A stretch of DNA of 64,000 nucleotides from Opisthorchis felineus. Its lineage: Eukaryota; Platyhelminthes; Trematoda; Opisthorchiida; Opisthorchiidae. Location: assembly GCA_004794785.1 (NCBI GenBank), contig SJOL01000802.1, positions 2,764,010-2,828,009 on the forward strand, written 5' to 3'. The translations under genes and the position numbers were made by a program. Below, one piece after another: positions 3,541-59,925 of this stretch (within the stretch, counting starts at the first letter, position 1; the number at the start of each line of letters is the position of its first letter). The notes beneath the pieces are model-generated. The model was not told where the DNA came from. It made no database searches and saw nothing but the letters and a program-made list of their open reading frames with translations.

Positions 3541-3567
3541 TAATTTGAGTTCAGGTAGAACACCAGG

Positions 3568-3622
3568 ACTGCATCTATCTGATGATCCGGAGCAGGAAGG
3601 CAGAAACCGGTCGTTAGTTGTC
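3568..3622 (+). ncRNA. Hammerhead ribozyme, RZ copy 1a (decayed)
   Basis: The CTGATGA and GAAAC boxes and the CCGG/GTC site are intact. The helix II sequence between them is badly degraded and should not pair well. Probably inactive. Confidence 0.55.
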
Positions 3623-3885
3623 GGAGCGTTTTCAGCAACCTTATGAGTAGTGTGTTGCGTCCAAACAATGTATTGCGACATCTCAAGTATCGTACCAACT
3701 AAAAAAAATGAGGCGGCCTCATGCAGCACATTCAGTTGAAGATAATCATCGTAAACAGGAAACTCAGATGGATTAAGCCAAGTCTGTGGTCAAAACCATT
3801 TTCGCGTGCTAATGAGAGTATCTGTCGAAACCTGTCCAGTTTGAAGGGCTCAAGTTGAGCTTGAGGTTAAGGGGAACTCGGGGAC

Positions 3886-3940
3886 TGCGCCTACCTGATG
3901 ATTCCGAAGAGGAGGGGCGAAACCGGTCGTGTGCTATCCA
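3886..3940 (+). ncRNA. Hammerhead ribozyme, RZ copy 1b
   Basis: CTGATGA (3895-3901), GAAAC (3919-3923), minimal helix III CCGG (3923-3926) and GTC (3926-3928) are all present. Helix I pairs GCCTAC with GTGTGC at five of six positions, allowing G-U. Helix II keeps only about three pairs, because the GCCC arm has become TTCC. The core is intact but helix II is weak, so activity is doubtful. Confidence 0.6.
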
Positions 3941-3985
3941 AGGAACCTTAGCAACCTTGTGCATAGCTACCTTAATGAAAACATA

Positions 3986-6900: not shown

Positions 6901-7384
6901 CATACAGTTATTTTCTAAGGGTAGCCCAGTTAAAGAGCGGCCGTCACTTTAGAATTCATACCAAGAGTTTGTGGCTAGGCACGACCCCTGGTGCGATCTC
7001 CTCTGAACAATATCTGTCGGATATGGTACGTCAGTTACTCCCTATGAAGGCAATTCTTCCCTGAGATTCTCAGTTACACGAACTGACAAAAAGAGTTGCA
7101 TTCACCAAACACATCCAGCTTCCCTTCGTGTCAACCAAGTGCGATGGTATCAAAATCTGTTTACATGAGCCTTTTCCACCCAAAGAAAGATCCTGGTCGA
7201 AGAAACACCTCTATGTTCCCTGAGAGTAGCTTCTTCGGCTTCATGGAAGTCAGGTAACTGGTGTCTTGTTAGTCAGCCACTCATCCTCCAGTCACGGATA
7301 CCGCATCAATTGGTCAGGTATCGACTGCCTTCTCTAGTGACGACTTCTCACATGGAAGTACTACTCATCTTGTGAAATTGTTCT
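3986..7384. other. No supported gene
   Basis: Short open frames only, none with a recognisable domain. A short CA-rich run lies at about 6453-6471. No repeat copy could be assigned by eye. Confidence 0.45.
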
Positions 7385-7920
7385 TCCTCTAACCAACTTA
7401 TGGATTAAGTGCTGAAAACTCCCACGAACGGTTTCGCCCTCCTTGGTGCTCAACAGGTAGGCGTAACCCCCCAGTTTCCGTCAACCTTATGTACTACTTG
7501 TGTACCCAAAATTGGACAGATTTCGACAAATACACTCATTTGCATATCAATTTGGTTCTGACGGGAGACTCGCCCGGAACCCAGCTGAATCTCTCGTTTA
7601 TGATGTTTTTAAGCAACTGAATGTGCTGCGCCAGACCGCCTCATGTTTCAGTTGGCACGATATTCGAGATATCTCGATACGTGTATAGACGTAATACACT
7701 ACTCATAAGGTTGCTGAAAAATCTTCGACACCCCATGACCAGTTTCGCCCTTCTTGGGGCTCATCAAGTAGGCGCAGTCCCCAGGTTTCCGTCAACCTTA
7801 TGTTCTGCCTGAATCCAAATTGGACAGATTTCGATAAATATGCTCTTTTTATATCGATTTGGTTTTGACGGGAAACTCACCTGGAGCTCGAATGAATCTC
7901 TCGTTTATAATGTTTGTGGT
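7385..7920 (-). repeat. RZ repeat, tandem array on minus strand
   Basis: The stretch contains two RZ ribozyme regions in the same orientation about 311 bp apart (minus-strand GAAAC at 7431-7435 and 7742-7746). The family body lies between and after them: a block with AACCTTATG, a block with TTCGACAAATACACTC, a GGGAGACTC block and a GAATGTGCTGC block. Both ribozyme cores carry single core mutations: CTGTTGA in the first and TTGATGA in the second. This is a head-to-tail array of at least 1.5 units, ending near 7920. Confidence 0.75.
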
Positions 7921-12865: not shown

Positions 12866-13010
12866 TTAGATACTGTTTATACACTACATAGGCACAGGAG
12901 GAATTCACCCACTCGACACCGCACTGGCAATGTCACCCAAATTGGTTACGAAACGTTTGCAATCCAACCACCAAGCTCGACGAACAGATTAACAACCAAG
13001 CAACGCACTC
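12866..13010 (+). mobile_element. Penelope-type 3' fragment with decayed hammerhead motif
   Basis: On the plus strand this matches the 3' region of the Penelope-like element at 34.66 kb (-). The shared order is a TATA-like stretch, an AGGAGG block, CACCCAC, the ribozyme-like boxes, then AAGCTCGACGAACAGAT. The first box is mutated (CTGGCAA, 12924-12930). GAAAC (12950-12954) and GTTTGCAA are intact. The arm GTCACC faces GGTTAC across a short loop, forming helix II with one mismatch. It is a short solo fragment with no coding sequence. Confidence 0.6.
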
Positions 13011-13367: not shown

Positions 13368-13503
13368 CAGGTTAAACTTTCGACAAATACACTCATTTGC
13401 AAATCAATTTGTTTTTCACGGGAGACTCAAGTGAGTCTGTCGGTCGTGGGCTGTCGAAGAGTTTTCAGCAACCTTGTGAGTAGTTTCCTTCAGGTTAAAC
13501 TTT
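13368..13503. repeat. Tiny RZ insertion (110 bp) flanked by 13-bp target duplication
   Basis: The direct repeat CAGGTTAAACTTT occurs perfectly at 13368-13380 and 13491-13503. Between them is a 110-bp insert. Its left part is RZ in minus orientation (CGACAAATACACTC onward). Its right part is RZ in plus orientation (GGTCGTGGGCTGTC to GTAGTTTCCTT). The switch lies near the palindrome AGACTCAAGTGAGTCT at about 13422-13437. The CTGATGA box is absent. The perfect duplication shows a true retroposition-type insertion. The inversion suggests a fold-back during copying. Confidence 0.85.
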
Positions 13504-14866
13504 ATTGCGTTATTTTATTTTATAATAGCATTCATAAATTCAGAGAAACTGACCAAACCACTGCAACAACCTGGATCAATTTTGCTACAGCAAACAAATA
13601 TTTGGCACCTGAGGCGTCCTTCTAGTAGTCAGAGGCCATTCTACCAGCTGCCGTTAGCTAGAGGTTTGACATAACTTGTCCTCTTTCAGAAACAACAACG
13701 GAAGGGGTCATCTAACACTATTTCCAGGCCTGTTCTCAATATTCATGAACAGCATCCGTCAGCTTTCCGATCCAAGTAGTTGTTTGAGCAGACCTATGTG
13801 TCCCCAAACAAGTGGGATAAAGCAGAGTAGGGGGCATTGCAAGAGTACAATTGACCGTCAGTGTTGATTCTTCCCACCTGTGGACCAACGGCAATCAGCC
13901 GTTATTTTTTCTATTTATTTGACTACTCATGAGTAGCGTATCTTGAGCTTTTATTATGACGCCGTTTTGCTTACCCGCCGTTCATTGCTTGGGTTTCTAT
14001 TCCCGCTTAAGGTCTGCCTATCCTCTAGTTACTAATGTCGAGATTTTATCGCCTTTCTGCCTTAGCTTGTAATTTCGCGTCAACTCCACCCATCTACGAG
14101 TGTGTGCTCCATAGGAAAAGCAGGTAGCCCGGGAGTGGAACTCGACGTGCCGGCAGCCCTATTTTTGTATTACCTTTGTATTGCACCTTACCTGATAGTG
14201 CTTGTTTGGATTTTGTTTTAAACGAGCCCAAGCGCGCATTTCAATTTGATACGTAGCACATGCTACTCCGCCACACCATCAGCCAAATACCGCAGGCATA
14301 TTCAATTTGTGTCAAATTTTCCAGATACCCGTTTTCCAGACAGCCACCCGAACGTGCTGGTTGTCTTCTGCGCCGTTGTCTCTGTATACGGCCTATTTAC
14401 ACTGTCTGACTGAGCATATCGGAAGCCCACTGTCCCTGTTTCTGCTTCTACCGACTGCGTTGTGGTTCATCGTCCGTTCTGTCTAATCCGCCATATTTAT
14501 TAACCCATTTCTCAATAGAACCAGTTCTTAATACAGCGTCTACTACATACATCCGTCTGTTCCTAGTGCCCAGTGAATACAAACTACTTATAGTTCGATA
14601 GCTTTAACTGTCCTGTAAGATCCTTAGCAGCCTGGTTCTTACAGTCTGTAAACTGAAATATCGTACGATTGGAACAAAAAATAGGAGAAAAGCAGGAATT
14701 TTCAGTTCTCGAGGTTCTCTTTGTTGACCGTTTAGCACGTGGACCAATTAGGGTCATATTCTTCGTTGATGTAGCCGGTAGTTGTGGAAAGGAGCACTGT
14801 TCGGTCTGAATAAAAAAGGAATGGCACTAAAAACAAGGTCATTGAAAGTCCCTTACCGAACTATGC
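13504..14866. other. No supported gene
   Basis: Short open frames only. No repeat family could be assigned. Confidence 0.45.
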
Positions 14867-15085
14867 CTGTCTGATCAGCCGCAAGAAGGACGCGACTAGT
14901 CGTGGGCTGTCAAAAAATTTTCAGGGTACTTGTGAGTAGTATGTTCAATCAAGAAAATAAAATGCGATATCTGGAATGTGGTACCAGCAGAAATGCGATG
15001 GCCTTTTAGCACCACATTCAACTGAGGAATACCATAGCTGACAGATTCAGCTTGGATGGACAACAAATAAGTTTATAAGATTCTA
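14867..15085 (+). repeat. RZ repeat, partial and diverged
   Basis: The left end keeps a ribozyme outline: CTGATCAGCC, AAGAAGG, GCGAC in place of GAAAC, then GTCGTGGGCTGTC with a good helix I 3' arm. The family body follows (TTTTCAG, GTGAGTAGTATGTT, GCGATATCT and a CATTCAACTGA block). Two core boxes are mutated, so the ribozyme should be dead. Confidence 0.65.
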
Positions 15086-18884: not shown

Positions 18885-18975
18885 TAGGAGCTCGGTGTGC
18901 TCGCAGAGCTTGGCAGTTTGTTTGCTACCATTTCGTCAACTTGTGAGTTGACATCATCACCGAGCGGTTAGGTGG
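18885..18975 (-). mobile_element. Penelope-type hammerhead-like motif, solo fragment
   Basis: On the minus strand the order is TGATGA (18954-18959), one extra T, a perfect 7-bp helix II (arms 18946-18952 and 18935-18941, loop CACA), then GAAA (18931-18934), a CAAACAAACTG stretch and CCAAGCTC. These match the same elements at 34.68 kb. The base before TGATGA is G rather than C, and the base after GAAA is T. The perfect helix II suggests it decayed from a structured ancestor. Confidence 0.6.
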
Positions 18976-21900
18976 GTTACCAATCTTATCAGCCTTGGAT
19001 AATATCGCATAAAATGATAGAATTATCCAGTCTGCACTTCATTTCGACAAGTTATGCCTTGAGCTAAAATGAGGAATCCATTGATGACGGCCAAAGCCTG
19101 ATAGAAAAGCCTCTTTAAAGGTCCTCACTTAGTTACCAGTGCTGAATATGGTACCTCCGAATATGACACAGGGCGAGGCATGGGAACGAACAAATTTTGG
19201 GTTGTTCCGCAAGCGTCATGTGGCAGAAAATTTTAGAGATTCGGCCGCAGACACCTTCAATAATACTAGGCCTGGTCAAGATAACTTGAACCGAATACGA
19301 CTGAAAACGGTAGGATACGAAAGTTTGGTATAGAGTAACCAATAAGAATACCCCCTCATAGTCCATTCTTGTCCACAAAACCTGATACATCCATGAATAG
19401 TAATTTTCTGCGGTTCGCGAGGTTGCCTCCGTTGCGATGCCTACTCCATAACGGCACTCAAAATGAGCTACTGATAATCTGCGAGTAGCTGAAAAAGGAC
19501 AGTAAATTTATAAGGGCGGTTGTCCTAAAGAAGCTCATCCATCTCATGCTGAATGCACTTTTGTACCAATAGATACTGTCAGAGTCAATCACCCATTGGG
19601 AAAAGGCTTCATTTTTATTGGCTGTTTCAGACGCAGCTTGAGAAGGAGGCAAGCGCGGAGAAACGAACGGAACTGCAGAGGTATATTTTGCCATTTCCAG
19701 TAAACAGTACAACCTTAAGCTACATAGTGAACTGATGTCAAATAAAGTTGGACTCTTCATTTCATCGATTTTCTACTCATTCTGATTCCCAGCACTTCAA
19801 GCGCGTGTTGTATGTGGGTGGCAATCCTCCTTCATGCATCTCGCTGAGCAACCTTATTCATCTGCTCGAATGAGTTCAACTGGATTGATGAGACAGGAAA
19901 CGGTAATCATCGAGTCACAGCGAACTCCGAAATTCAGTGTTAAAGTGACCAGTCTCACCTCCTGGAACCTGTAGGGGGGTGAAGTAGCTGCCAAATAAGT
20001 GAGCACTGGGGTAGAGGTGATGTTTCACTGACCCATGAAAAACTCAGTAAAAGCTCGTCACTTGTATCAAACCCCCCTCGATTTCCTTGCTACTGAGCCA
20101 CCGTATGCCAGTTTGTGGCCCCAGGTTACACGCAAGAGCCTGAAGTAAAGCTGGTAAAACTACCCAGCCGGAAAACAGGACCACCAACAGCTAGTTGACG
20201 CATAGTGGCCGGTGTATGCGCGTTAGATGTTGTGGAACTGATCGCTGTAGCGGTTAGGGGGCATTGTTCGAACCTCACATAATTTTCCTTGGGTTTTCCA
20301 TAAAAAATCGTCATTAATAATGTATTGGATGCCTCAAAGCGGGAAAAATTGGGATAAATTGAGAAAAAGCTGAGTTTCCTGACGAAAATTTCAATCATTT
20401 CATACAGGCGGCTGCGAAAATGGTCAACTTTTTTCAGAGGTTTTTTTCGGTACTCACTCCAACCAAAGTTCTATTTTCACCGTCCACTATTTTGCGTGAT
20501 ATGAGCGGTCACTGTTTGATGACGACGTAGAGCCAGCTACCATTCCTTTGTGCCTACATGATGTTATTTGCTTTTTCTGTGTCTTTTTTACTGCGGAAAT
20601 CACCAGATATTTGGATGATCTGATAACTCCTCGAAGAAGAGCGGCTGAAGGAGAAATCGACTTACCCACCCCATAATTGCACAGAGTTTTTAAAGGGTCA
20701 CAAAGTTCGTCATCATCTCTGTCACCGAAACTACGGACCTTGAAGACAGCCTCTCTGGACATCCCGCAAGTTGCACTTCCACCTATTGGAGAGGTAGCGA
20801 ACAGCCGCATAATCTGGCCCTTCAAGGTTGGATACCAGTGGAGTTATTGGAAAGTGTCTAGCGGAAAAGCGGCATCTCTGACACGAAAGTTAGCTTCGAG
20901 AGTTTACTTCAATTTCGGTTTGATTGGACAGTCAGAATAGGGAGCTGAGGTTTTCGTCCTAACACATCTCACTCAAAAGGATCACTGTACGACTCAAGAA
21001 AGCCCTTAGACGACGAGACCGCGTTTGACATCATTTCAGAACACTAGAGGAAGTTATGCCGATTACAGACAGGTACGAAGCAAGCTTATGACTATAGAGA
21101 TTGTTAAGAGAAACCGACGGAGTCTGTCTCTGTTCCCATCCGCTCTTCACTCCAACCGCTTCCGGATGACGACAAGATGCAAGAGTTCAAAAAGGAGAGT
21201 CTTTGCTAAATATGAATGACCATCCGACCTGAGACCCAAGTTGCAGGCCTCCAAGCCAACTGATTTTGATATCATTCTGGAGGTACACCAGGATTGTGCC
21301 TTACTCCTGTAAACATCGAGGAAGCGGTCTCTTGAAGGATGGTATTGGCGTACAGATCAACTATTGGTTTGATGAACATCCGTTTAGTAACAGACGTTTC
21401 TACACAAAGTGCTCTCCAGTCGAACAAATTGTGAATTCTCATGTCTTTCTATGACTGGGTATTGTTTGCGCGTTCGTTAGGCGAATTGCAAAGTCCTTCT
21501 GGGAAATTTCAGACCACGTTTTTCTTGTGCGCCAACGTGAAGAGGATTGTTGTTGTGCCGCGACCCCCTCCCCGCGTGAGATCTCCAGTTCTCCGCAGCT
21601 CATCAAGACAGGAAGAGACTTCGTCGACTACTGTTACTTCTGCTACGTCATGGCACACTGTTCGTAGACTTTACCGCATCAACAACAACTTGCCGCCCGA
21701 AACCGAAATACGTACCTACAAAGCAAAGGTCCTTGCGTATTCTCGACCAGCATAATAATCGAAACATACACAGCTACAAGGCACAGTGTTTGAAGCGAAT
21801 ATTATGTATCATCTTGGCTAAACAATGCCGGCCAGTCTTCTAGGTAGGCGCAGTGTGGGGCGGGTGCCTGATTGGAAAACTGAACGCCAACAAACGAAAT

Positions 21901-22166: not shown

Positions 22167-22506
22167 GCTGTCAATATATTTCGACAAATACTTTCATTTG
22201 CACGCTCATTTCGTTTTAACGGAGGAGACTCAAGTCAGTCCAGCTGAATCTCTCGCCCATAATAGCCTGTTTCCACTGAATGTGCTGCACGAGGAAGCCT
22301 CATGTTTGATATGGCACATTAGATGGGAGGTCGCACTACATTGTCTAGACGTAACATACTACATTAAGGTTTCTGAAAACTCTTCGGCAGACCACGACCG
22401 GTTACGCCCTCCTTCGAACTCCCTGAGTTGCCGTCAATCTTACGTTCTACTTAAAACCAAACTGGATACACTCATTTGGAAGGCCATCTGGTTTTAACGG
22501 GAGACA
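22167..22506 (-). repeat. RZ repeat, about one monomer, ribozyme core lost
   Basis: Minus orientation. It starts at the common edge TTCGACAAATAC and continues through GAATGTGCTGC, GTCTAGACGTAACATACTAC and GAAAACTCTTCGGC to GACCGGTTACGCCC. The ribozyme is broken: GAAAC has become GTAAC, and the CTGATGA region is deleted or scrambled. Part of a second monomer follows. Confidence 0.7.
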
Positions 22507-22539
22507 ACTTAATCCCAGGTATATTTTTCTAAGAAACAT

Positions 22540-22770
22540 CAGGCGACGTTTGTGCAGAACATCCAGCCGAAGAACAACGTAAACAAGAGTTTCAGCTGGA
22601 GGCATTTGAGTGTCTTGTGAAAACCAAGTTCGTGTGCAAATGAGAGTATACGGCGAAATCTGTCCTATTTGGATTCAAGTAGAACATGACGTTGACGGAA
22701 ACTCGGGGACTGCGCCAACTTGATGAGCCCCAAGAAGGTTGGAAACGGTCGTTGGTAGTTCAGTGGATTA
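22540..22770 (+). repeat. RZ repeat, plus orientation, decayed hammerhead at right end
   Basis: The body runs from GGCGACGTTTGTGCAG to GCAAATGAGAGTAT. The long helix I 5' arm (GACGGAAACTCGGGGACTGC) is followed by TTGATGA (22720-22726), the helix II arm GCCCC and GGAAACGGTC. The first box has T for C, and helix II is damaged. It faces the copy at 22167-22506 in the opposite orientation. Confidence 0.68.
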
Positions 22771-24454: not shown

Positions 24455-24672
24455 AGCAAATTCAGTTGGAGAATACAATAAACGAGAGATTCAGTTGTGT
24501 CTCTCGTGAAAACCAAATTGATTTGCGAATGAGTGTATTTGTCGAAATCAGTCCAATTTGGTTTCAAGTAGAACATAAGGTTGACGGAAACTCGGGAACT
24601 GTGCCTACCTGATGAGCCCGAAGAAGGACGAAACCGGTCACAATCAGCAATCTTGGGAGTAGTTTCCTGTAT
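24455..24672 (+). repeat. RZ repeat, one monomer with intact hammerhead core
   Basis: Plus orientation, from AATTCAGTTGGAGAATAC to GGGAGTAGTTTCCT. It contains AAACGAGAGATTCAG, a GTGTATTTGTCGAAATC block, AACATAAGGTTGACGG and the ribozyme. The right edge GAGTAGTTTCCT is the same as at 13490 and near 33660, so it is probably a real family boundary. Confidence 0.72.
24600..24645 (+). ncRNA. Hammerhead ribozyme, RZ copy with intact core but weak helix I
   Basis: CTGATGA (24609-24615), helix II GCCC/GGAC with one mismatch, GAAAC (24630-24634), CCGG (24634-24637) and GTC (24637-24639) are present. The helix I 5' arm GCCTAC is intact, but the sequence after the cleavage site (ACAATC) no longer pairs with it. 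Cleavage is therefore unlikely. Confidence 0.6.
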
Positions 24673-27269
24673 ATATTTGTTCTCCTTTACAACCATTCCT
24701 AGCAGTCTGGAAAATACAAAAATCCTGGAACACATGTCTTATCTGATCACATGTTACACGGGGTCAGTGAAAGTGACCTTGGCGTTCAGACCTTGCTGGT
24801 TAAAACAAAGGTGCGCTCAATACCACACTGAAAAACATTGGTAACATCAGGGATGCGGTTCGAAATGGCTGGTCAAACCAAACAGGCCTCAACAGATGAG
24901 CTGAATCAGCAGTCGCGATGTGGTCAATGATGGACAGCACCGTGATATACGTTCATCTATTCTAGCTACCGGGCAAGCCCAACGCGGTAACCAGTTCACA
25001 CGACTAAATACCTGTTTGCCAATTGATAAATTAATCCATGTGTTTTGATGTAGCAAGCTTCGATTCTACTCGCGCGGGGCTCAAATAATCGGCGGAACTC
25101 CACATCAGTGAGAAAGTTAGAACAATGATAAACTCATCGAATAGCTCATTTGCAGGACAGTTCACCAAAGTGGCGAATTAGGCTGTGGTGAAAATCACCG
25201 CTATTGACCAAAGCAATCAATTTATTCCAGCTGCAGATGTGTTCTGGGTTCGAGCTGGCAGTACTGCGGGCGACCAGTTCACCTGCAACAAATAACATTG
25301 AGTCTGGTTGTTATTTTTATCTGCTTTGGTCTACAAATGTTCCGTCTTGACTCCATCAGACATATCGAACTGGGAAGCCTACAACGACGTTAGAGGTGAC
25401 TTCACGTGACCAACATTACCTAGCCTCCTTTCTGTCTACCGGATATGTCTTATGGGTGGTGCGGGTTCTAAGTAGTTGTCCCCACTAATCTGAACATTCT
25501 AGCCTATCGACCATGAGTGTTGGTCATTTGAAAATTCTGCCCTACTTGCCACTCTTCGGTCTTATTCACCCGGGTTCATATTGAGTGAAGAGCACGCACC
25601 GCAGACCTATCCTGAGCTGCTGTACGATAGCGTAGTTCGACGTATCCAAAAACAGACGTCAGAGGGGAAAAGATGTGTCACAGTTTGACTGTGGAGTTTG
25701 TTCTAACGTGACCTTCGTGAACGGAGACAACCCCAACTGGATGTTCTGAAGGGAAAAACAACCGCATCGATCAACGGAATAAATGTCATCAGTGACTCGG
25801 TCAGTCTGCCGAGAAGGAGCAGTTTTCTCTTGTCGGATAGAAACCTTTCGAATCAAAACAAGCGGCTCGTCCGCATGCGATATTACAGGTCGTCTGTGAA
25901 TCAGCCAGTTCGGCGTCACAGTGGACTGGCTAGCCGGGTCATCGGGACTCGGTAGGAGCCAAGAATGACTAAATTGCGTGAAAATAAACAATAAATACAG
26001 CGGTGCGCCCCCGGGATCCGCACCAGAAAAGGTGCAATTTCTGGAACGCTTCCGCAAGCGACACAATGCAGCAGTCTCCACATTTAGCTCACAAAATCCT
26101 AGGCTCAGTGGAACATCTACGATCGGGCATTGTGCGGTTAGGTGATACCTTGAGTTAACGGAAACAGTCATTGCAATTCGGTTAAGGCGTCCCAAATCTC
26201 ATCACGATCTTTGTAATAGGAGAAAACGGATCTACTTGCTGACGGCCCTGAACCGACTTTTTGGGTTGTAAATGAGAGCAGTCCTCAAAGTACAAACACC
26301 CATCCGTAGTCATTTGAAGAATCTAGGAAAACAATTTGGGGTTTTGGCGATCGTGTTAGTCAGTCAGGTATCAAAGGCGATGAGCTGAGACCGGTTTCCC
26401 GCCATATTTTCATTCTAATTTTGCTTCTTACTAGTGAGAAGGAGGAATGCCCTTCGCCACGGAGTTGGTTATTAGAAAACACCAACTAAACAGTTACAAA
26501 CTATCGGATAGGAAAGTAAACCTCTCATGTGCACCTTGTTTTTTTAAAAAAAAACTGAATATCCGTATTCTTTTTGAACGCGTCTTCTTGAACTTTCCTG
26601 GATATTCATTGACTATCACGTAATTGTAAACGAATGCTGCAAAACAGATCTGCAAATTCCGTAATAAACCCCACCTTCCAATAGACGCGAAGCGGAGTTA
26701 CGAGAAAACAGACTACTCGCAAGCCTCATCAGTAGTATCCGCCGTTACACTAGTATTACTGGAAAACTTGAACTGCTTGATAGTGGATTCGTCAAATAGT
26801 TTAAAATCGTGCACACAGGACCAGCAATGTGGATAATTTTACGAAAATAGGTTTCTTATTACCTTATGTATCATACGAATGTACTGCTGGATGGATGGAA
26901 GCGGTTACGGGGTGGGCAGACTGAAGTTTGCTTACCGGTTGTAAGGGTCCCTCACTACGAAACCCTTTCCTCAGCAGGGCAATAGACCCGAATTCACTGG
27001 AACCACGACAAAATTACTGATCCATAATCAAACTTACTCAAGATGATAAGACAGTAGAATAGTTGAAGACGGTAGCGATGATCTACTCACGTGATCAAAC
27101 GCACAAATCTCAGCTGGCACCCACACTAGTTCAATGAGTCTCAGTTCTACGGAAAGACTACGCTTAAATGCATTTCAACGTACAGTTGCCTGAATACGAC
27201 CCATAAGCATATGGAACGTCCAAAATTTTGAAGAGTAGACGCGGCTGACTGATTACAGACTGATTCGTT
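24673..27269. other. No supported gene
   Basis: An open frame of 178 codons at 25659-26195 (-) has no recognisable domain, low-complexity signature or clear splice support. I do not call it as a gene. Nothing else is supported. Confidence 0.4.
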
Positions 27270-27800
27270 GTTCAGCTGCTCTGGCAACTGTTTGCAAACG
27301 TCTCACCACTATTCGAGGAGATATCATCAGTACGCGGCCGGATGGGTAGTCACTATTTTTGCTGCTGTACTTATATAGTTCGTAAAGAATAGATTTAAGC
27401 TATAATGCGGTTGGTTGTTCAGAGATCATTACATTTGGAGCCTGACTGGTCCGTTTGCGATCTGTCACTTCGTGGCCTACCTTTCTGGAGCTCCGCTCCT
27501 GTTCCGATCTGAACTTCCTGATGTCTGCCTTCCATTGTTCTCGTCTTCAGTCTGATCGGTCAATTCTCAAACTATGGTCTCTTCCCCTGGGTAAGGTTGG
27601 CTGATTTGCACGACTTTTCTCCGCAGAGTTCCAATTATTTTGGCCTCTATGCTCCCCGGATTTCATGGTCCTTGTTCAGAGTTACACAATACTGTCCAAT
27701 TAATTGTGGACGTACTTTTGTTCTAGACACGCTGGGTTCCTGTTTGATTCCTTGTACGGCTAAGACACGTTAGTTGTTATAGGGTATCTACCCATAAAGC
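27270..27800 (-). mobile_element. Solo 3' region of a Penelope-like element
   Basis: On the minus strand this follows the layout at 34660-35180. The hammerhead-like boxes lie at 27300-27330 (CTGATGA at 27324-27330; GAGAC in place of GAAAC at 27300-27304), then GTTTGCAAAC. A TATATA-like stretch lies upstream near 27370. Beyond that is a long T-rich (plus-strand view) tract like the one between 34.8 and 35.2 kb. No coding part is visible, so this is a 5'-truncated or solo terminal copy. The right boundary is approximate. Confidence 0.55.
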
Positions 27801-33512: not shown

Positions 33513-33836
33513 TTAATGATATTTTCATAAAGGAAACTAATCACAAGGTTGCCGAAAACTCTTCGACGGAAACTCGGGGACTGCGCCTACCTGATGAACC
33601 CCAAGAAGGGCGAAACCGGTCATAGGCTGTCAAAGTTTTCAGCAACCCTGTGAGTAGTTTCCTTTATGAACATATACCGCGATATCTCGAATATCGTACC
33701 AACTGAAACATGAGGCGGCGGCCTTTGTGCAGCACATTCAGTTGAAGAACATCATAAACGAGAGATTCACTTGAGTCTCCCGCGAAAACCAAATTGATTT
33801 GCAAATAAGTGTATTTGTCGAAATTAACGATATTTT
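33513..33836 (+). repeat. RZ element with target duplication and snap-back hairpin
   Basis: The best preserved RZ insertion. It is flanked by TTAATGATATTTT (33513-33525) and TTAACGATATTTT (33824-33836), a 13-bp duplication with one mismatch. The body in plus orientation runs from the ribozyme through GCGATATCTCGAATATCG, the GAGGCGGCGGCC block and a CATTCAGTTGAAG block to GTGTATTTGTCGAAA. The left end is an inverted copy of the sequence 3' of the ribozyme: 33524-33560 is complementary to 33634-33670 at 34 of 37 positions. The ribozyme sits in the loop of that hairpin. Confidence 0.85.
33582..33630 (+). ncRNA. Hammerhead ribozyme, best-preserved RZ copy
   Basis: All core parts are present: CTGATGA (33591-33597), GAAAC (33612-33616), palindromic minimal helix III CCGG (33616-33619) and GTC (33619-33621). 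Helix I pairs GCCTAC with ATAGGC at five of six positions, the miss being the pair next to the cleavage site. Helix II has three G-C pairs plus an A-C mismatch at its base. A helix III of only two base pairs usually works better as a dimer in known natural hammerheads. Activity is plausible but not certain. Confidence 0.7.
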
Positions 33837-34655
33837 ATTTTGGTGAAGGATGGATTGAGAAGCATTCACCAGTGATATTTACTGAAATCAGTCTAGTAAT
33901 AACAAGCGATTCACACACACACGAAATTTGAACAAACCTCGATTGAAAAAGTTTTCTGAGAGAAAATTAATTCAGCACCTTCAAGTGTTACCCCAAAAAG
34001 GCAAAAAAGAAACGTGGAGTGGGGATCGATCATTGGATTCATTCTTTTTTGTGACTTCCTTTATCTTCGAAAATGGTAGGATGGCACGCATTTTGGACAA
34101 ATGTGTTGAAAAATGGTTAAACCGATGGTCTTTCTGCCTGGCTTGAACAGAAACCAACTTCACCGGATCATGTGATGTTTTGGAAAAAGACGGCCTAGAA
34201 AGCAAATATTCCGGTTTCACTTTTTTACGACTACGGTGCTTGTGGAAATTGCTCGGTGTCGCTGCGAACGATCGGGAGGAACCAGCTGGTTTCACTTCGG
34301 TACCCGGGGGGCACGCTAGTCGAGAAAAATATCGGCTCAAACACGGTTTGATCGACCAGCTTCCTCATTCCCACCTTTATCCTTTCATCTGAAATAAGTG
34401 CGGGTGAGAATAGGATCACCCTCCTGTATGATGAGACGAAAAGCGAACAGGGCACGATCTTAGGAATTCGGATAAAACAGGACAAAGTGAGGTAACCGAA
34501 ATTGAAACCGGGTCGACCTTGGGTTCCACTTTGTGGGACTTTGAGGTAAACACTCCCCGATCCTGATATTAGTTTTCCAAAACGTCCACTAAAAAATTCC
34601 GCAGACTACTATCAAGTTTACCGTAGACATTCGGACTTTGACTAAATGGTTGTTG
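33837..34655. other. No supported gene
   Basis: An open frame of 119 codons at 33981-34340 (-) has no recognisable domain. It overlaps other frames and is not called. Confidence 0.4.
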
Positions 34656-34684
34656 ATCAGGTGGTTGTTGATCTGTTCGCCGAG

Positions 34685-34745
34685 CTTGGCAATTGACTTG
34701 CAAACGTTTCGTCACCATACGAGGAGGTATCATCAGTGCGCAGTT
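34685..34745 (-). ncRNA. Hammerhead-like motif in the 3' region of the PLE
   Basis: On the minus strand: CTGATGA (34730-34736), a U, helix II with ACC facing GGT (more pairs if a mismatch is allowed), then GAAAC (34706-34710) and GTTTGCAAG. PLEs are known to carry hammerhead motifs in their terminal repeats, so position and boxes fit. The extra U between CTGATGA and helix II recurs in sister copies at 12.9 and 18.9 kb. I could not assign a convincing helix I by eye, so catalytic ability is unproven. Confidence 0.6.
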
Positions 34746-35187
34746 GGGTGGGTACCTCCTGTTTGCCTGCGTGCGTTTATATAGCATTCAAAGGCTATCT
34801 GTTATCTCCTAACGTGATTGGCTAGTTGGGTAACAGCGTTTTCCGCGAATTTATTGGCCCGTTCGTGATCTTTGTTGCGTTGTGGCTTGCGTTCCCTCAA
34901 GTCGATTTGTCATCCTGAAGCCTTCTATTTTTAGTGGTTTCCTCCTCCTCCGTTTTGATTGGCCTCCTTCTTGATTTGCGTTGCGTTGTGGTCTGATTTT
35001 TCTTTTTCGGGAGTGATTGGCTGGCTGCACCGCCTTATTTTCTCCACTGTATTGACTGGCGTCCTTGCGATTGTCGGTTAGTTTGGTACTTTGGTTTATT
35101 GCCTGGGTGCTTACTCCAATCCAAGTGATGTGTCCGTTTGGATCGTACTCCCTGCTTCTTTTACGAGTTCCTCGTCTGGTTGCTTGT

Positions 35188-36480
35188 TCAGTTCAGAGCT
35201 ACGTGGTTCTTGCGTTCTCTTTCTCTTAGCGGTTGATAAATAGGGTTAATTTCAATATGCTTGTTGATAGCTTTTTCGGTGGAGTACCACGCTTCCATAA
35301 ATTCGCGTTCTTTCTTCGTTATCGCTTGAGCCAGTATGCGAACGCCGCTCCAGTCGAACTCGTGTCCTTCCTGATCTTTGTGCACGGAGGTGACAGAAAA
35401 TTGGTCGTGTCTTTTTGTAGCGACCTTATGTTCATGTATTCTGGTGGAGAGCTTCCTTCCTGTTTGTCCTATATATCGTTTGTCACAGTCCTTGCATGGG
35501 ATCCTGTATATGACATTGTTCTTCATCATTGGATCCAGTTTTACTTTTGGGTTCGATAGTGTCCTCCGCAAAGTGTTCGCAGGTTTGTAAGCCACTGTCG
35601 TGTTGTGCTGTCGTAAGAGCTTCGCGGTCATTTCGGCGGTGTTCCTGAGTGTGACTCGTTTGCTTCCATTTTGTGCCGTTGTGTTAGTCGTGTTTGGCTT
35701 CCTGAGTGACCTCCAAATAAAGTTCCTTGGGTATCCGTTTCTCTGGAACAATTTGTAAAGGCGTTTTTCTTCTTTGATCTTGGATTCTGTTGTGCTGCAG
35801 TGTGTCTGGATCCGTCCAGGACGTGCCGGTTTTCCGTTGTTCTCTTCTTCGAATGTGAATTTGATGTCGTCAAAAACGTTGTTTAGCAGTTGGCTCACTG
35901 GTTGCAGTTCGTTTTTGTTGATTATCACAAAAGTGTCGTCGACGTAACGGATCCATTCTTTGGGATTTATGTCGGACAATACAATTTGTTCCAGCTTTTG
36001 CATCGTACTTTCTGTAATAAATCCTGAAATTGGCGACCCCATCGGTGTCCCTCGTAATTGTTCGTAATATTCTCCGTTGAACTCGAAATGTGTGACCAAG
36101 CATAAGTCGAGTAATTGGCAGAGGTCCTCTTTCTCCAGCGATCCAGTTGGCATGCCGCCGTTATCCAACAATTCGGCCACAGTTGTCTTGGCAGAATGGG
36201 CATCTACAGACGTGAATAATGAGCTCACATCAAATAAGACCATTATTTCATCCTGATCGATGTTTACGTTCTTCAGCCTCTCCAAAAATTGTCCCGCATT
36301 GTTGATTGAATGTAGAGACCCACCGATGAGATGTTTCAACTTCTTCCATAGTTCTTTTGAAAGATTGTACGTCGCCGTTCCCGGCAGTGATACTAGTGGT
36401 CGGAGGTGTATTGTTTTTTGTGTACCTTTGGGAGTCCGTAGAAGCGGGGAGTGGCCGAATCCCGAGCTCTCATTCTCCAA
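35188..36480 (-). pseudogene. PLE reverse transcriptase / GIY-YIG endonuclease, C-terminal frame
   Basis: A frame of 430 codons. RT motifs appear in order: FDVSSLFTSV (about residues 83-92), GTPMGSPISGF (144-154) and the catalytic YVDD (179-182). The usual LPFLD-type segment is missing: the sequence passes from FTFEEENNGK (about 208-217) straight to THCSTTESK, so some 40 residues are deleted relative to relatives. The C-terminal GIY-YIG domain has YRIPC (325-329), CDKRYIGQTGRKL (332-344), an Arg-His pair near 347-349 and a conserved-looking Glu at FMEAW. The first 20 or so residues are out of frame: the protein should enter from the adjacent frame at an A6 run (plus-strand T run 36414-36419), where one base appears to be missing. 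The product would copy RNA and nick target DNA in the nucleus. Confidence 0.9.
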
Positions 36481-36544
36481 TATTCCTCTTTTGTAATCTT
36501 ATGGAGATCTTGGAGCTTCTTTAAGTTCTTATTGATTTTGTTTG

Positions 36545-37441
36545 CTAGTTGCTTGCTTTGGTCACGTTCCGAGCGGCGATACGTGGGTGTGTCGTTGAGT
36601 AGCGCTTTCGCTTTGTTGTCGGTTTCTCCATGATCAAAGTTAGGCGTCCCTTGTCTGCCGGTAGAATCACGATGTTTTCATCCTTCTTCAGATTGTTCAT
36701 CGCTTGTTTTTCTTTGTCGGAAAACACATTGTAAGGCTTGCTGCGTGTGATGGCCGGAATGACGGTTTGCCAAATTTGTTGTTGAGCGTCTTCGTCGAGT
36801 CCGATAGATTTCATCGCTACTTCCAGGCTGGCTAAATACTCTAGGTTTGTCGCACCTTGGAAGTTGAAGTTGGACCCTCTGATGAGAACGTTTTCTCCAG
36901 CTTCTGTGAGTTGCCTTTTGGACAGATTTCTTATCCAGTCTTCGTTGTGATTACTTTTGTACTCATGGGTTCTAATCAGCCTGGAGAATTTGCTTTTCAG
37001 ATGAGCTTTCTTGTTCCTAGCAGTGGATGTAACTCTTTGTTCTATCGCCGTGCTGAGTTGCTCTATGAGGTCTGGTCCTATTGTCCTCAAACAGGCTTCT
37101 CTATGCTCGTTGGCTATTCTCTCGTATTTTCTAATGCGGTTGTGGGCGTTTGTAATCATGAGTCTGACCATCCGCCGACCATTCTGCCTAGCTATTATCC
37201 AAGCTTGTGGATGGTTTATTGGCAGTCGATAGGTTACGCTACGTGGGAGGACGCATTTCCGCAGGCATTCATGAAGGAAGTAGAGTTGTTGTCGTGTGGA
37301 GGCTTGTCGACAGGCGAAAGTCTTCCATCGACGAGCTGTTTTGAACGTAGAACGCCCGATGTTGTTGGTAATGTGTCGACTAGTGTTGACTGGTGTATGC
37401 AAGGTTAAAGGACTAGGGCACCCTAGAACGAGGAAATCCAA
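36545..37441 (-). pseudogene. PLE N-terminal region
   Basis: A frame of 298 codons forms the N-terminal part of the same PLE protein. It is basic and helical, and its C-terminal part has DENIVILPADKGRLTLIMEK, the segment (DKG box) typical just before the RT fingers of Penelope proteins. After that box the true frame is lost at an AAA run (plus 36623-36625), again by one base, and continues in another frame toward ATPRFYGLPKVHK at about 36435. The listed start is not an ATG (TTG), so the true N-terminus may lie further upstream or be truncated. Both breaks are single-base losses in A runs, so sequencing error is possible. Confidence 0.85.
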
Positions 37442-37519
37442 GGATGAAAAAAGAAACCGAAAGCAAACTACGCAAAGCTGTTAGTCTGGTTGTTCGAGAC
37501 AGACTCATCACAAATCACC

Positions 37520-37711
37520 AGATAGCTCGGTGGTTAAGAAGCGGACATATTGCCCGGAAGGTTCATGGTTCGAACCCAATCCCGGCATCTCGACTTCTCC
37601 TGTCTAGGCTTGGGCAACATGACAGCATCTCAGTCCTCGTGCTTCCCTCGGGTGGTTTGGCAGCCAGGCACCGAAAGGATGTTACCGCTGAACGATTATT
37701 ATTACTATTCG
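37520..37711 (+). repeat. S1 SINE (tRNA-derived), copy 1
   Basis: The family is described here once. The head is tRNA-like, with a box-A-like ATAGCTCGGTGGTTAAG and a box-B-like GGTTCGAACCC (both Pol III promoter elements). A unique body follows with CATCTCGACT, CTGTCTAGGCTTGGGCAAC and CCTCGTGCTTCC. It ends CGAAAGG, GTTA, GCTGAACGATTATTATTA. Length is about 180-195 bp. It has no coding capacity and would depend on a LINE enzyme. This copy is complete, with a degenerate ATT tail. Confidence 0.9.
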
Positions 37712-38454
37712 AAGCCCCAAAGCCATGGGTTGCGGGCACAGTTTACGGGCAGATTACGATCGGATACTAGACCTTGGCAAAGCGGAATTTCGCATAGATG
37801 CGGGTGTCATATAGAGTAGAGCAGTCATGCACGACGGGTCATACACCTACAATCGCAGTTCCATAGATTTTTCTAACATGAAAAGACAGCATTTGGCTTC
37901 CTTAAAGGAAAACTACCAATATTCGGTTAGTTATGTGGATTGAAACGTCCTAGAGGTCGGTAGCAAAACCTTAGTGAAAATACTGAGTGATAGTAATAGG
38001 GTTATTATTACAACGAATGAAACACCTTCTAGGACTGAACTAGTACAACGATGGGACAATGAACCAGACACGTGAAAACAACGCTTACCAACTGAGCGAA
38101 ATCGTTTTTTCTTGTGACGAAACAGGCGAAAGAGGCCCGAAGTTGAGGCGTCGGAGCGGCGAGGCTGACTCAAAGGGGTGTAGGTTCCTGGAATTTCTAT
38201 ATCAGATAGAAAGAACGCACAAGGACGCGTTCAGGGCTGGTGGATGAACAAATGGGTTGGTACTAAGCCTGTACTCATGACGTAATCATATTCTTTGGAG
38301 TTTAGTAATGGTCAGATAGTGTGAGAAAACAACCGTTCACAAGTGGAGAGTAGTCAGGTTGTTCTCGAGTCACCAGGTGAGCGATTCAAGATGTTTTCAA
38401 TTGAGCTTTCGTTCTGTGAGTGAAGCCAACCTACTATGAAAGGCGGACAACCAC
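37712..38454. other. No supported gene
   Basis: Nothing recognisable. Confidence 0.45.
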
Positions 38455-43072: not shown

Positions 43073-43079
43073 TGGCAGT

Positions 43080-43885: not shown

Positions 43886-43888
43886 CAG

Positions 43889-48105: not shown

Positions 48106-48232
48106 AAGGAAACTACTCATAAGGTTACTGAAAACTCTTCGACAGCCCACGACCGGTTCCGTCCTTCCTGGGGCTCATCAGGTAGGCGCAGTCGCGGAGT
48201 TTCGGCCAACCTTATGTTCTACTTGAACCCTG
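48106..48232 (-). repeat. RZ repeat, ribozyme-centred fragment
   Basis: Minus orientation. It begins at the edge AAAGGAAACTACTCAT on the plus strand, covers the ribozyme with its long helix I, and ends in TATGTTCTACTTGAACC. Only about 125 bp of the monomer are present. Confidence 0.72.
48139..48195 (-). ncRNA. Hammerhead ribozyme, RZ copy with perfect helix I, mutated core
   Basis: Helix I is perfect: GCCTAC pairs with GTGGGC, allowing one G-U, and an outer helix with GTCGAAGAGTTTTC extends it. CTGATGA (plus 48175-48181, read on minus) and CCGG/GTC are intact. GAAAC has become GGAAC, a change at a catalytic adenine, so it should be inactive. Confidence 0.65.
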
Positions 48233-49985: not shown

Positions 49986-50440
49986 CTACGCATTGAAGGC
50001 GATAGCTTTGATACACGAGCTCCACTGACTGCGCGATTGGGCCATTTCTGCCAATGTCATTAACCACTGGTGATTTGAGTCCCGGGGTCCCCATCCAGGG
50101 GGGCGGCAGTTGCTCACCCGACTAAGTTTACTGGTTAGTCGGCGCCATTGGTGTCGAAGGTTGGCGAAAGCTGCCCTTGCTTTCCAGATTCGAGAAGTAA
50201 TGTCATCTCCAGGCGGTCCACCGGAACTTATACAACTGCACAGATAAATAAATTTATCTACCACGTCGATTGGCTCACCTGCAAGCATGAGGTGTGGGTT
50301 TGATCCCACCCAGTCTTGTAGTAGCTGTTTACACTTTGAAGGTGTGAAGCGCATGCCAAATCGTGCGGCAGAGTTATTTAGGTTATTTAAAACCGTTTGC
50401 ATTTGGTAACGATCTGAACCAAGGGAGACACCAACGAAAA
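49986..50440 (-). mobile_element. LINE RT fragment (RTE/CR1-like), internally deleted
   Basis: The minus-strand frame has SAARFGMRFTPSKCKQLLQDW, DVVDKFIYLCSCISSGG and KARAAFANLRHQWRR, the RT thumb style common in trematode RTE/CR1-like elements. Directly after RR it jumps to CRPPGWGPRDSNHQWL and MAQSRSQWSSCIKA, which look like the protein C-terminus. The roughly 100 residues normally in between are missing. The element is a dead 5'-truncated copy. The residue at 50442-50501 is less clearly part of it. Confidence 0.75.
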
Positions 50441-50569
50441 AGACGTATATTGGCCGGTGAAACTTAACCCCAAAAACCTTACTCCGTTTGTTGACACGCA
50501 CTTGTCAGAGTACAGCGACGGTATTCACAAGTTAATTTTGTGTGCAGATCCGCGATGTAATAAAATCGC

Positions 50570-55724: not shown

Positions 55725-56345
55725 ATCACTACTCGCAAGGTTGCTGAAAGCTATTCGAAAGCCGAGTACAGGTTTTGACCTTCGTGCGGCCGGTCAGGTA
55801 GGCAAAGTTCCCAAGGTTCCATCAGTCCTGTGTTTTACTTGAGCACCAAATTGTAGGCAAATGGAGAAGCATACTCACTTAAAAACTACTTTGTTGTTAA
55901 CGGAAGACCCAAATGCATCCAGCTGAATCTCTCTTTATGATATTCTCCAACCGAATGTGCTGCACAAAGGCCACCTCATTTGTCAGTTGGTGCACTATGC
56001 GAGATATCGCAGTAGATTGTTCAGACGTAACACACTACTCGTAAGGTTACTTAAAACCCTTCGACAGCTCACGGCCTGTTTCACCCATCCACTTTGGGCT
56101 GATCAGCTGGGTGCAGCCCCCGAGTTTCTGTCAAGCTTATGTTCTAATTGAGCCCAAATTGTAGGAAATTCGCGAAACACGCTCATTTGCACCCCAATTT
56201 GGTTTTCACGGGAGACTCAACGGAAACCCAGGTAAATCTCTTGTTTACGGTACCCTTCAACTGAGTGTTGTGCATGAAGGCCGCCTCATACTTCAATTGG
56301 AACGCCAAGTATATATCCTTGACATACTACTCATAAGGTATGGTC
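55725..56345 (-). repeat. RZ tandem array, about two complete units on minus strand
   Basis: The recurrent start motif (ACTACTC, AAGGTT in plus view) appears at about 55728, 56030 and 56330, giving a repeat period of about 300 bp. Each unit has the GAATGTGCTGCAC block and the GATATCGC or equivalent block. The first ribozyme region keeps GCCTAC and CTGACC, but the GAAAC box is lost. The second has CTGATCA, helix II GCCC/GGGT and an intact GAAAC, with helix I weakened. Both are likely inactive, but the head-to-tail layout is clear. Confidence 0.75.
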
Positions 56346-56362
56346 TGCTCATAGAAACCAAA

Positions 56363-56445: not shown

Positions 56446-56879
56446 GTTAGGGATAGTCGTTTGTCGACGGAATAAAGGCAGATTAGCACAATCGCTAATG
56501 TGAATTTCTTCAGGTCGCATTCAGACAATCAGGCATTACATTACATCATGCACATAAAATGAAAACATGCCATGGAAATGCAAAATCAGAGGCAACGTTG
56601 CAAAATGTCCACTTTTCAGTGACCTAAGGGTATGCGCGTCTTCCCGTGAGAATCACGATGCTGAGAGACAGACTGTAAGTAAACAGCAGTCTGTCAACGT
56701 GACCACACAAGCCGAAGCCGGACACAGATCCAATCAGCTGCGGATTGATCCGGCTGATGGTGCCATACTCCAACATGACGCTCAAATATGTTTAGCTTAA
56801 CACCGTTCAAAGGTACAGCCACCCTGTTCTTCATCGTTTTCCTTAAGGAAATAGGGCTTCTTCACACTAACCCCTACCC

Positions 56880-56998
56880 TTTTCTTTAAACTCTTTATTA
56901 GGGCATTCTTCCCCCATGTTTGTAGGGCAGTTAAGCGCCAGTATGTGGCACTGGTGTATTGCTGTCACTGATGATGATGAGGACGATGATGATACGGA
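56880..56998 (+). repeat. LINE/retroposon 3' end with GATGAT tail
   Basis: AGGGCAGTTAAGCGCCAGT and CACTGGTGTATTGCTGTC are followed by a GAT-rich tail (about 56970-56995). It matches the tail at 43.4 kb. The upstream part is not recognisable. Confidence 0.55.
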
Positions 56999-57826
56999 CA
57001 TAAATCAATAGCATGGGGCGGTGAATGAACAGGGAGATGCAATCTCATCAAGGTCAACCACACTGGCCGCTGAGTCACTCATTCTGTTTGCACAATTGAA
57101 TAAAAGGTAAACAAGCGACAAAACAGCTGAACAAACATATCAAGGTCATGCCCCGCACCTAAGGTAAACTACCGTGTCTATCACCATGCCACGTCACTCG
57201 CTGTGCGCGCACACACATGCACAGGCCGTTGCTTGCTTACCTTGGACAGTGTGCTTGGTCCTCCACCTATCAGATGGATGCGGAACAAACAGAAATATTT
57301 TCCACGTACTTACTGGGCAGTGTAGATCAGTGGTTTCCAACTTCTCCCACACCGTATTTCTCTTTCTGTTATTCTTCCTACCAAATTTGGTTGGCTCCGA
57401 AATAAACGATTTCAAGTGGCACAAAACTACTCATAAGTAGCAAACAGAGATAACTTAAAGTTAATAGGATGGTCTGATTAGCGTGAACCCTCACAACATC
57501 CCAACAGTTTGTTTAAACGCGCATCAAGCTAGCCATTATAAGCTCTGATTGTATTCGGTTCTGTTCCATAAAGGGCTAGTGAAAATGTATTCGGTCAGAG
57601 CGACCAGACAAGCATCCACCCCCTTCCACTGTTGACAATTTTGAGCAGCCCGAAAGCGATGTAATTAACATGTGCCATTGGTAAGTATGAAAACACATCT
57701 AGAAGCTCCATGCCAGTTAAAAAGCCAGCTAAAGCGCCCTGATAAAGAAGGCGGAACTGTTAGACTGAATAGATTGGACTACATTTAGACGAACTGAGCG
57801 CTACCTAATCGGATGAAACCAGCACG

Positions 57827-59380
57827 ATGACAGACAGTGAGACAGATAAGCAAGGGATTTGGAGAAACTCAGCTGAACAACTGCTTCAAAAGGCTAAGAA
57901 ATGCAGGCTCCGGGGGCCAACCGGGACTTACACACCGCGCCTTTATGGTCCATCGAAAGTGCAGAAGGATGGAAATCCCATTCGACCAACCTTAGATATG
58001 GACAGGTCATACAATCGCAAAATGCTTAGCTGGTCCATGCACACCGACACGGAAGCAGCTGTGAACCTCTGGCATGAAAAAAATTCTCTTGGTTTGTAGA
58101 TAACATGTGCGATTTTCAGCGGAGCGAAAGTATCATGGGATCTTTTGAGGATACTTAACTCGCCATTATTGTCAGCAACACTGATACTCAACTGCAATAG
58201 GAAAAATTGTTCAGCTGTAACGCCATGCCTTTGGAAGGGAGCACGAGAGCTGAGATACTACTAGGTTGCCCAAGCCTAGACAAAAGTGGTCGAGACGTCA
58301 GGTCTGAAACACGAACCTTCCAATCGGTCAGTTCGCGCCCCAACCGCGGAGTCATCTCCAGTCCACTTCGTCATTTACAAATGTACACTTCCTGTGATAG
58401 AGGTGAACCTACAATGAATATTCCACTGTCGGATTTCGAAGAGCTGCTGTTAGGGTGTCCATCAGACGTACAACAGACGGCAAAATTATACGGTATGGCA
58501 GTAGTTCCGTCAAATAGTCCGTTGCTGTCAGACGTCGACACTAAAAGAACTGTGGATTGCAAATTTATTTGAAAGAACCCACGATGTGTCAGAAATACTA
58601 GAAAACTTTAACCCGGATCATCCAGTGTTTGGTTTCACCTGCGAAACAGAAATGGACGGATTATTTCACTTCCTGGATATCGATTTGCGTAAGGAACCTG
58701 ACGGCGGAACAGATCTAGGGGTGCAGACAAAACATTCATTTTTATCTTTGAACTACGAGTAAAACTTGGTCAGATGCTTGCCATACAGAGCCCATAGAAC
58801 CTCGACTTATGAAATCTTGGATGGGGATCTGCGGCCTCGAGAGGAAATGGAATTCTTAAGAAGTTCCTGCGGTGACATGTGGCCCGGAGAAACAGACCAA
58901 AGGATGTGAAGTAGACAGTGCTCGAGAAGCGACCGTACACTCAACTGCCAGTTAAGGGCGACTTTACATCGGAAGTCATCAGAAAATTGCTAACTAAACC
59001 AATTAGTAGAACTTTCAACGCTGAAAAAATCTCAGGGTTTTCTTCACACGTATGCCTATGATCAAGCCTAATCCAAGAGGTGGATTACCAGTCCTTATTC
59101 ACTTGTGATTGTTATACAAGTTGAATTGGTCGTACGATTTGACGACCGTCCCATGAATACCGGATTCCTTTCCAATGAGAAATGAAGAAAACCGGTGACA
59201 GCGCGATCCACTCAACAGAATCTGGTCACCTGAGTAACCCAGACAAGTTGCTTGCAGTGGTTTACCCTGTTTCTGCATGCGATTCCAAGGTTGTACGACA
59301 CAGCTTACTTGCAACGGCCGAGGCTGCCACCATCTAACTCTGTCAGGCCACACATTACCTACAAAAGAACCAGGTTCAAG
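57827..59380 (+). mobile_element. Second Penelope-like element, decayed, interrupted by an S1 SINE
   Basis: Plus-strand frames give, in order, a PRLYGPSKVQKDG segment (Penelope LPKIHK box) at about 57940, then an S1 insertion (58203-58361). Later at about 58600-58700 comes FTCETEMDGLFHFLDIDL, matching the FTxExExxxxLPFLD segment. At about 58950-59060 is LPVKGDFTSE followed by TFNAEK. A GIY-YIG-like stretch (FTCDC, then IGRT) lies near 59095-59140. Many stops and shifts make it inactive. The YVDD region was not found and is probably deleted. It is a different lineage from the 34.66-37.44-kb element. Confidence 0.75.
58203..58361 (-). repeat. S1 SINE, copy 8, inserted in the second PLE
   Basis: Minus orientation, interrupting the PLE open frames. 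The body TTGTCTAGGCTTGGGCAACC is clear. The head is decayed: box B is GTTCGTGTTTC, and box A GATGACTCCGCGGTTGGG is altered. Confidence 0.85.
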
Positions 59381-59714
59381 TAATTAGAATTCACTGACTT
59401 AGGCTTCCTCCAACAGTCTACCCAGAACCACCGTTAGAATTATTCCGGGTCCTCATTTACACATCCATCAGAAAGTCAAAACGGACTTTCCAGTGCCTAA
59501 GAGAATTTCGCTTTAACCCCATGAGTTTCGCCATATATTTAATGATTGTATTGGCCAGCTGAGACCTTACTGAAAGCAGTCGTTTGCCCGATAAGATTCA
59601 TGACAGTTCGAGCAAACCGAGTTCTGCTGTTTCCAGGACAGAAACTATCAATTATATCTTTGGAAACCCGAGTTCTTTAAGCACCATTTGGATTGACAGA
59701 TGAACACCTCGGGA

Positions 59715-59925
59715 ATCTTCTTGACGGGACATACTACTCATGAGAGTTGCTGAAAACTGGTATGTTCTATCAATGAAATATACTATAATATCTCGGATAT
59801 CGTATCAAATGAAACACAATACGGCTTTTGTGCAGAATATCATAAACGACAGATTTGATTGAGTCTTCCGGTAACACCGACTCAATTTGCAAATGAGTGT
59901 ATTTCGGAAATCTAAGGGGTCCCCC
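59715..59925 (+). repeat. RZ chimera with orientation switch
   Basis: The left end (CATACTACTCATGAGAGTTGCTGAAAACT) is RZ in minus orientation. From about 59760 the sequence is RZ in plus orientation (GTATGTTCTATC, ATATCTCGGATATCGT, TTTTGTGCAGAATATC, CATAAACGACAGATTTG, to GAGTGTATTTC). The ribozyme itself is missing. It is flanked by no obvious target duplication. Confidence 0.65.

Follow-up and report, generated by a model that had tools for sequence, protein, structure and literature searches.

Insertions of a hammerhead ribozyme repeat family in Opisthorchis felineus resemble those of Penelope-like elements

The 64,000-nucleotide stretch of Opisthorchis felineus DNA analysed here (contig SJOL01000802.1, positions 2,764,010 to 2,828,009 of the forward strand; hereafter the window) carries scattered copies of a short hammerhead-bearing repeat, RZ, and raises the question of what kind of element RZ is and which enzyme copies it. 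The available parts of the literature on animal retrozymes leave the enzyme that moves them open, and name Penelope-like elements (PLEs) as strong candidates on the grounds that the two kinds of element are found together, form tandem copies and both possess type I hammerheads (PMC7229834; PMC7761336). RZ is a new family of a known kind, a noncoding and non-autonomous metazoan retrozyme; the novelty lies in the anatomy of its insertions, which matches that of Penelope elements. In the portion of open-licence PubMed Central literature that was covered, nothing was found that deals with opisthorchiid fluke retrozymes or with retrozymes inserted head to head.

The 307-bp RZ unit is best seen in an array on another contig (L009; G000 C14:131000-136500), where ten 307-bp steps follow one another without error and the adjoining stretch reads N. 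With position 1 set at the first base past the expected cut, GTC|GTGGGC, the hammerhead and its outer helix span unit 255-307 and 1-21, and the core in L009 is complete: CTGATGA, GCCC-CAAGAA-GGGC, GAAA, a two-pair helix III, GTC, and a helix I of GCCTAC/GTGGGC. All parts named in the initial annotation (helix I GCCTAC/GTGGGC, helix II GCCC/GGGC, GAAAC, a 2-bp helix III and GTC) are present, and the outer helix that it described, GAAACTC/GAGTTTTC, pairs when read from the sequence, with one bulged U. The covariance-model check that it called for gave a match below threshold only: this young array aligns end to end with Rfam Hammerhead_HH9 at 36 bits (E 2.2e-7), under the gathering score of 52. 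Covariation was dropped as proof of the hammerhead, because among 104 distinct copies (identical and incomplete ones left out) base pairs are kept no better than under independent decay. Across the 630-Mb genome there are 2,939 occurrences of the exact 26-base core and 2,414 of a 23-mer of the body, each with zero occurrences of its reversed control; same-strand spacings of 293-309 are found among the listed places, and the core has no occurrence in viral contigs.

Within the window, a BLAST search with the circular 307-bp unit found 17 segments at about 13 places, and shuffled windows gave no match in any of 20. The pattern CTGATGA-N{4,30}-GAAAC occurs five times where 0.41 is expected, a count reached by none of 100 shuffles; one of the five is a different motif, that of a PLE (34736-34706, minus strand). 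A scan that added the RZ upstream motif returned 11 matches, seven of them RZ cores (plus strand: 3579, 3895, 22720, 24609, 33591; minus strand: 7737, 48151) and the other four chance; degenerate RZ hammerheads lie at 7417-7456, at 56063-56106 and, on the minus strand, near 55824. The dispersed hammerhead repeat reported initially is confirmed. The claim of at least a dozen copies stands for the body and fails for the hammerhead, of which only about 10 are recognisable. At gathering thresholds Rfam reports nothing in the window, and Hammerhead_HH9 matches five of its RZ copies below threshold (E 0.033 to 8.4); Tandem Repeats Finder gave no result there, because the copies have diverged. The RZ features of the window follow, with unit positions and with the end windows into which outward ends fall: A (unit 203-216), B (34-62) and a minor site C (9-22).

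3566..3961, plus: RZ copy with two hammerheads (3579-3612, 3895-3928) 316 bp apart; unit 264..33, 74% identity
7421..7915, minus: RZ tandem copy with hammerhead 7737-7767 and degenerate hammerhead 7417-7456; 5' end at unit 129, 84% identity
13368..13380, unstranded: left 13-bp target duplication CAGGTTAAACTTT, flanking the insertion 13381..13490
13381..13490, unstranded: head-to-head RZ insertion (BLAST to unit, target duplications); arm 13385-13429 inverted, outward end unit 208 (A), arm 13441-13484 forward, outward end unit 39 (B)
13491..13503, unstranded: right copy of CAGGTTAAACTTT, 13/13 identical
14865..15020, plus: RZ fragment, unit 271..119, 72% identity
22186..22464, minus: RZ segment (BLAST to unit), outward end unit 208 (site A); a target duplication was sought and none found
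22533..22755, plus: RZ segment with hammerhead 22720-22750 (BLAST to unit, motif scan), perhaps forming one insertion with 22186..22464 as left arm
24455..24639, plus: RZ copy with hammerhead 24609-24639 (BLAST to unit, motif scan)
33513..33525, unstranded: left target duplication TTAATGATATTTT, 12/13 identical with the right copy
33526..33823, unstranded: head-to-head RZ insertion with hammerhead 33591-33621 (BLAST to unit; Hammerhead_HH9 E 0.033); arm 33536-33567 inverted, outward end unit 39 (B), arm 33565-33816 forward, outward end unit 208 (A)
33824..33836, unstranded: right target duplication TTAACGATATTTT, pairing with TTAATGATATTTT
48112..48230, minus: RZ copy, 3' end unit 39 (B), 5' end unit 228, hammerhead 48151-48181, 92% identity
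55727..56299, minus: RZ tandem copy of about 1.9 units with degenerate hammerheads, 3' end unit 40 (B), 75% identity
59788..59906, plus: two short RZ fragments (E 1e-3 and 4e-3), the last trace of the family in 3541..59925

Two of the nine places tested in the window (13381-13490 and 33526-33823) are head-to-head copies bounded by duplications, and both join an A end to a B end. The term retrozyme-like, applied to the family from the outset, proved apt: units of about 307 bp stand singly and in tandem, and copies are dispersed in their thousands. Set against the features of metazoan non-LTR retrozymes, RZ has a complete type I hammerhead core per unit (its Hammerhead_HH9 score being below gathering), a unit of 307 bp, within the range of about 170-400 bp and also tandem, and target duplications longer than 4 bp (9-15 bp, median 13). 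The unit is too short to hold the reverse transcriptase and GIY-YIG endonuclease of an autonomous PLE. No Pol III B box was found in it with up to two mismatches allowed. At site A a working second hammerhead was considered and rejected, as the rest of the motif is kept in 5 of 30 distinct copies (CAAATGA in four, CGAATGA in one); one window copy reads CTAATGA there.

To describe the insertions more widely, 78 loci chosen by hammerhead core were mapped on the circular unit, giving 103 places. Clear target duplications flank 23 of these, in a count which, for RZ and PLE alike, left out places less than 40 bases from a locus end or under 60 bases long; mispaired flanks gave 1 in 303, and at places of at least 93% identity the proportion was 16 of 32. 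All 41 two-segment places are head-to-head and none is tail-to-tail; ten places are more complex, with a reversed step in L066 (+-+) and L007 (--+-+). Neighbouring copies in opposite orientation repeat this bias, with 6 and 3 pairs of the order (-,+) and none of (+,-) among the 100 listed places of each search. In a head-to-head copy the left arm is inverted and the right arm forward, and both outer ends are therefore 3' ends of the sense RNA. At many junctions target and element overlap by a few bases, which fits base-paired priming.

The outer ends are also fixed in position. The 23 copies bounded by duplications have 38 outward 3' ends, of which 17 lie in A, 16 in B, 4 in C and one elsewhere; a uniform model gives 1.6e-23 for at least 33 ends in A and B, with windows that were set after viewing the ends. 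Among copies with at least 88% identity and no recognised duplication, A, B and C together account for 36 of 41 ends. A fairer check than the core-chosen loci comes from ten further loci chosen by the body, two of which touch an edge: A and B take nine of 13 outward ends, the other four falling outside, and duplications were found in 3 of 8 usable loci. End pairs at the 15 head-to-head places with a duplication are A+B (10), A+C (3), A+other (1) and B+C (1), and at the 26 without one A+B (14), B+other (6), B+C (2), A+other (2), C+other (1) and B+B (1); thus A+A never occurs, and B+B once, in 41 head-to-head places.

These ends bear on whether a LINE-type element moves RZ by target-primed reverse transcription, the head-to-head forms arising as in L1 twin priming, which in the available account likewise leaves inverted 5' parts between target duplications (PMC2837659). 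We regard this as unlikely, given that RZ has both its outer ends at fixed sites of the 3' type, 33 of 38 of them in A or B, and that a T-rich motif after the nick is common to both target strands, nick|[C/G]TT being preferred, with T occupying +2 in 34 of 46 and +3 in the same number. A motif common to both strands is in keeping with an enzyme that cuts the two in the same way. An open frame at 49986-50504 (minus strand) of the window resembles, by eye, the terminal part of a LINE reverse transcriptase, with no Pfam family at E 0.001. Snap-back self-priming, considered as a source of the inversions, is also unlikely, because the inner arm ends sit at different unit positions (65 and 197 in L006; 126 and 188 in L022).

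The arms themselves carry traces of RNA copying. Some are longer than one unit (506 nt in L047, 401 in L064 and 397 in L015), and B-ended arms (e.g. in L006 and L022) cross the cut site; since arms cross that site or extend beyond a unit, the template was uncut or had been re-closed at that point. In seven of the eight one-armed, duplication-bounded copies the 5' end falls at 124-128 or 226-237, adjoining the 3' feet of stems 82-124 and 178-232 of the predicted fold, where pairing probability at the foot is 0.98 and 0.67, respectively; the circular fold of the unit is computed at -100 kcal/mol, against -78.0 (sd 5.2) for shuffles. Such 5' ends are as would be expected of a reverse transcriptase halted by RNA structure. 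Private variants common to the tandem units, seen in some of 16 arrays (L014, L013) and lacking in others (L076, L072, L052), give partial support only. The notion that RZ is a satellite spread by DNA recombination, its hammerhead a relic, accords with the error-free L009 array and with the decay of copies without selection on helices; for dispersed copies it is already contradicted by inserts of up to one unit between target duplications, by ends at fixed sites and by 5' ends at stem feet, and we consider it hardly tenable, although some arrays may have grown by DNA recombination.

The window also holds a PLE at about 34647-37480 (minus strand), separate from RZ and split into two open frames:

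34647..34796, minus: PLE 3' end with its own hammerhead-like motif (34736-34695), 90% identity to the 3' end of PLE family A
35188..36498, minus: PLE open frame, with RVT_1 (36 bits) and GIY-YIG (23.5 bits) both over cut-off
36545..37480, minus: upstream open frame with no Pfam family, probably the N-terminal part of the same PLE

Neither this element nor the head-to-head RZ insertions appear in the initial annotation. Among the proteins most similar to the window PLE, those with a species name include matches in Opisthorchis viverrini (79% across 47% of the query) and in Clonorchis sinensis (81% across 45%); the genome contains many relatives whose open frames are longer. Short PLE 3' ends with the PLE hammerhead motif lie in the window at 12896-13008 (plus), 18894-18977 (minus) and 27268-27388 (minus), and at about 37500-37720 (minus) a tRNA-like GGTTCGAACC box marks a stretch that resembles a SINE.

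Genome-wide, PLE matches number at least 190, some of them large head-to-head pairs (e.g. C841, C845), and 240 occurrences were counted for a 40-base word from the hammerhead motif of PLEs; this motif has no Rfam match up to E 5. In 17 of 18 listed head-to-head pairs, the sample analysed, target duplications of 9-17 bp (median 13) were found at every place, and at 16 of the 17 family A places the arms end at +90..96 and +123..135 from the motif start, the exception being L099 (90 and 95). Neighbouring PLE copies in opposite orientation are (-,+) in 18 cases and (+,-) in none among 100 listed places, and 3 of 10 PLE ends that turned up incidentally in the window or in other loci were head-to-head. 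In PLE loci L097-L113 the inner ends of the arms recur as well; most lie 4-18 nt upstream of the hammerhead motif, as though the RNA stopped or copying broke off at that point.

Given this likeness, RZ copies might be solo pLTRs or shortened PLEs in place of an independent retrozyme, as PLE 3' ends likewise carry hammerhead-like motifs and form short head-to-head pairs. We think this quite improbable: the 307-bp unit was compared with five PLE loci from families A-D and shares with their 3' parts only 13-15-base words at E 1, a chance level, its hammerhead is a full type I that matches Rfam HH9 where the PLE motif does not, and RZ alone forms a ten-step identical array. A shared tail was likewise set aside, as only the 12-base PLE end offers a match, 9 of 12 at site B; that this is its best place on the unit is suggestive. 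The target preference after the nick, compared between RZ and PLE family A only, is not common to the two: in family A, +1 is A in 17 of 34, +2 is T in 10 of 34 (Fisher p 1e-4 against RZ) and +3 is T in 18 of 34 (p 0.06). Family A is therefore probably not the driver of RZ. RZ shows the marks of Penelope-type mobilisation, namely two internal start sites, one per target strand, and head-to-head joining.

We thus favour, as the likely account, that a Penelope-type reverse transcriptase copies uncut or circular RZ RNA from two internal sites, one for each cut target strand, a mechanism that we infer from the insertion scars. The ends, duplications and orientation are features of the copies themselves; the Penelope-type enzyme is suggested by the resemblance of RZ insertions to PLE insertions in the same genome. 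The type I hammerhead, evident in sequence and fold, should cut multimeric transcripts into monomers of about 307 nt. The RNA copied would be uncut or re-closed at the cut site, to judge from the arms, and most likely a circle, though an uncut multimer would also fit. A Penelope-type protein would then cut the two strands of the target at points about 13 bp from each other, and the DNA 3' ends so formed would prime copying at A or B (or the minor C), the site as a rule differing between the strands. Both cDNAs would grow inwards, tend to halt at stable RNA stems, and be joined head to head between 13-bp target duplications. More tentatively, as the start sites lie about half a circle apart, a dimeric Penelope-type enzyme could possibly keep hold of a single RNA circle while copying it from the two cut strands simultaneously, and hammerhead-like folds beside sites A and B may be what the enzyme binds. 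If this account is true, animal retrozymes would be parasites of PLEs, recognised through paired sites and not through a shared tail. The RZ scars offer direct evidence on how retrozymes are mobilised and a clue to the copying enzyme, and the predicted start sites A and B permit an exact in vitro test.

Among known systems, the Sma-alpha and Sj-alpha repeats of schistosomes, described as SINE-like, are by description similar to RZ, each being a short trematode repeat with a hammerhead. Metazoan non-LTR retrozymes (Cervera and de la Pena 2020, PMC7229834), in the available parts of their description, share with RZ the type I hammerhead, target duplications longer than 4 bp and thousands of copies, form repeats of 170-400 bp from dimers to long arrays, and count platyhelminths among their hosts. 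The main text of that paper has no occurrence of 'inverted', 'head-to-head', 'twin' or 'opposite orientation', whereas RZ has head-to-head copies and two start sites; circular RNA is shown there for metazoan retrozymes, whereas the RZ circle is predicted from sequence. PLEs (PMC11167929; PMC3846280, the latter in the parts available) resemble RZ in their head-to-head inverted ends, target duplications, hammerhead motif and cutting of both strands, and have an optional tail of 30-40 bp between two start sites; RZ, in contrast, codes for nothing and lacks sequence similarity to them. In vitro, an Anolis PLE cuts and extends both strands, copying from two adjacent internal sites with the tail between them, and its hammerhead is dispensable for insertion (PMC11167929); the rotifer PLE, in the portion of its description available, has inverted pLTRs, an optional tail and 8-10-bp duplications (PMC3846280). 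The insertion pattern of RZ and of the O. felineus PLEs fits both the Anolis in vitro work and the rotifer pLTRs, with start sites 143-164 nt apart on the circle in RZ, against about 39 nt in the PLE.
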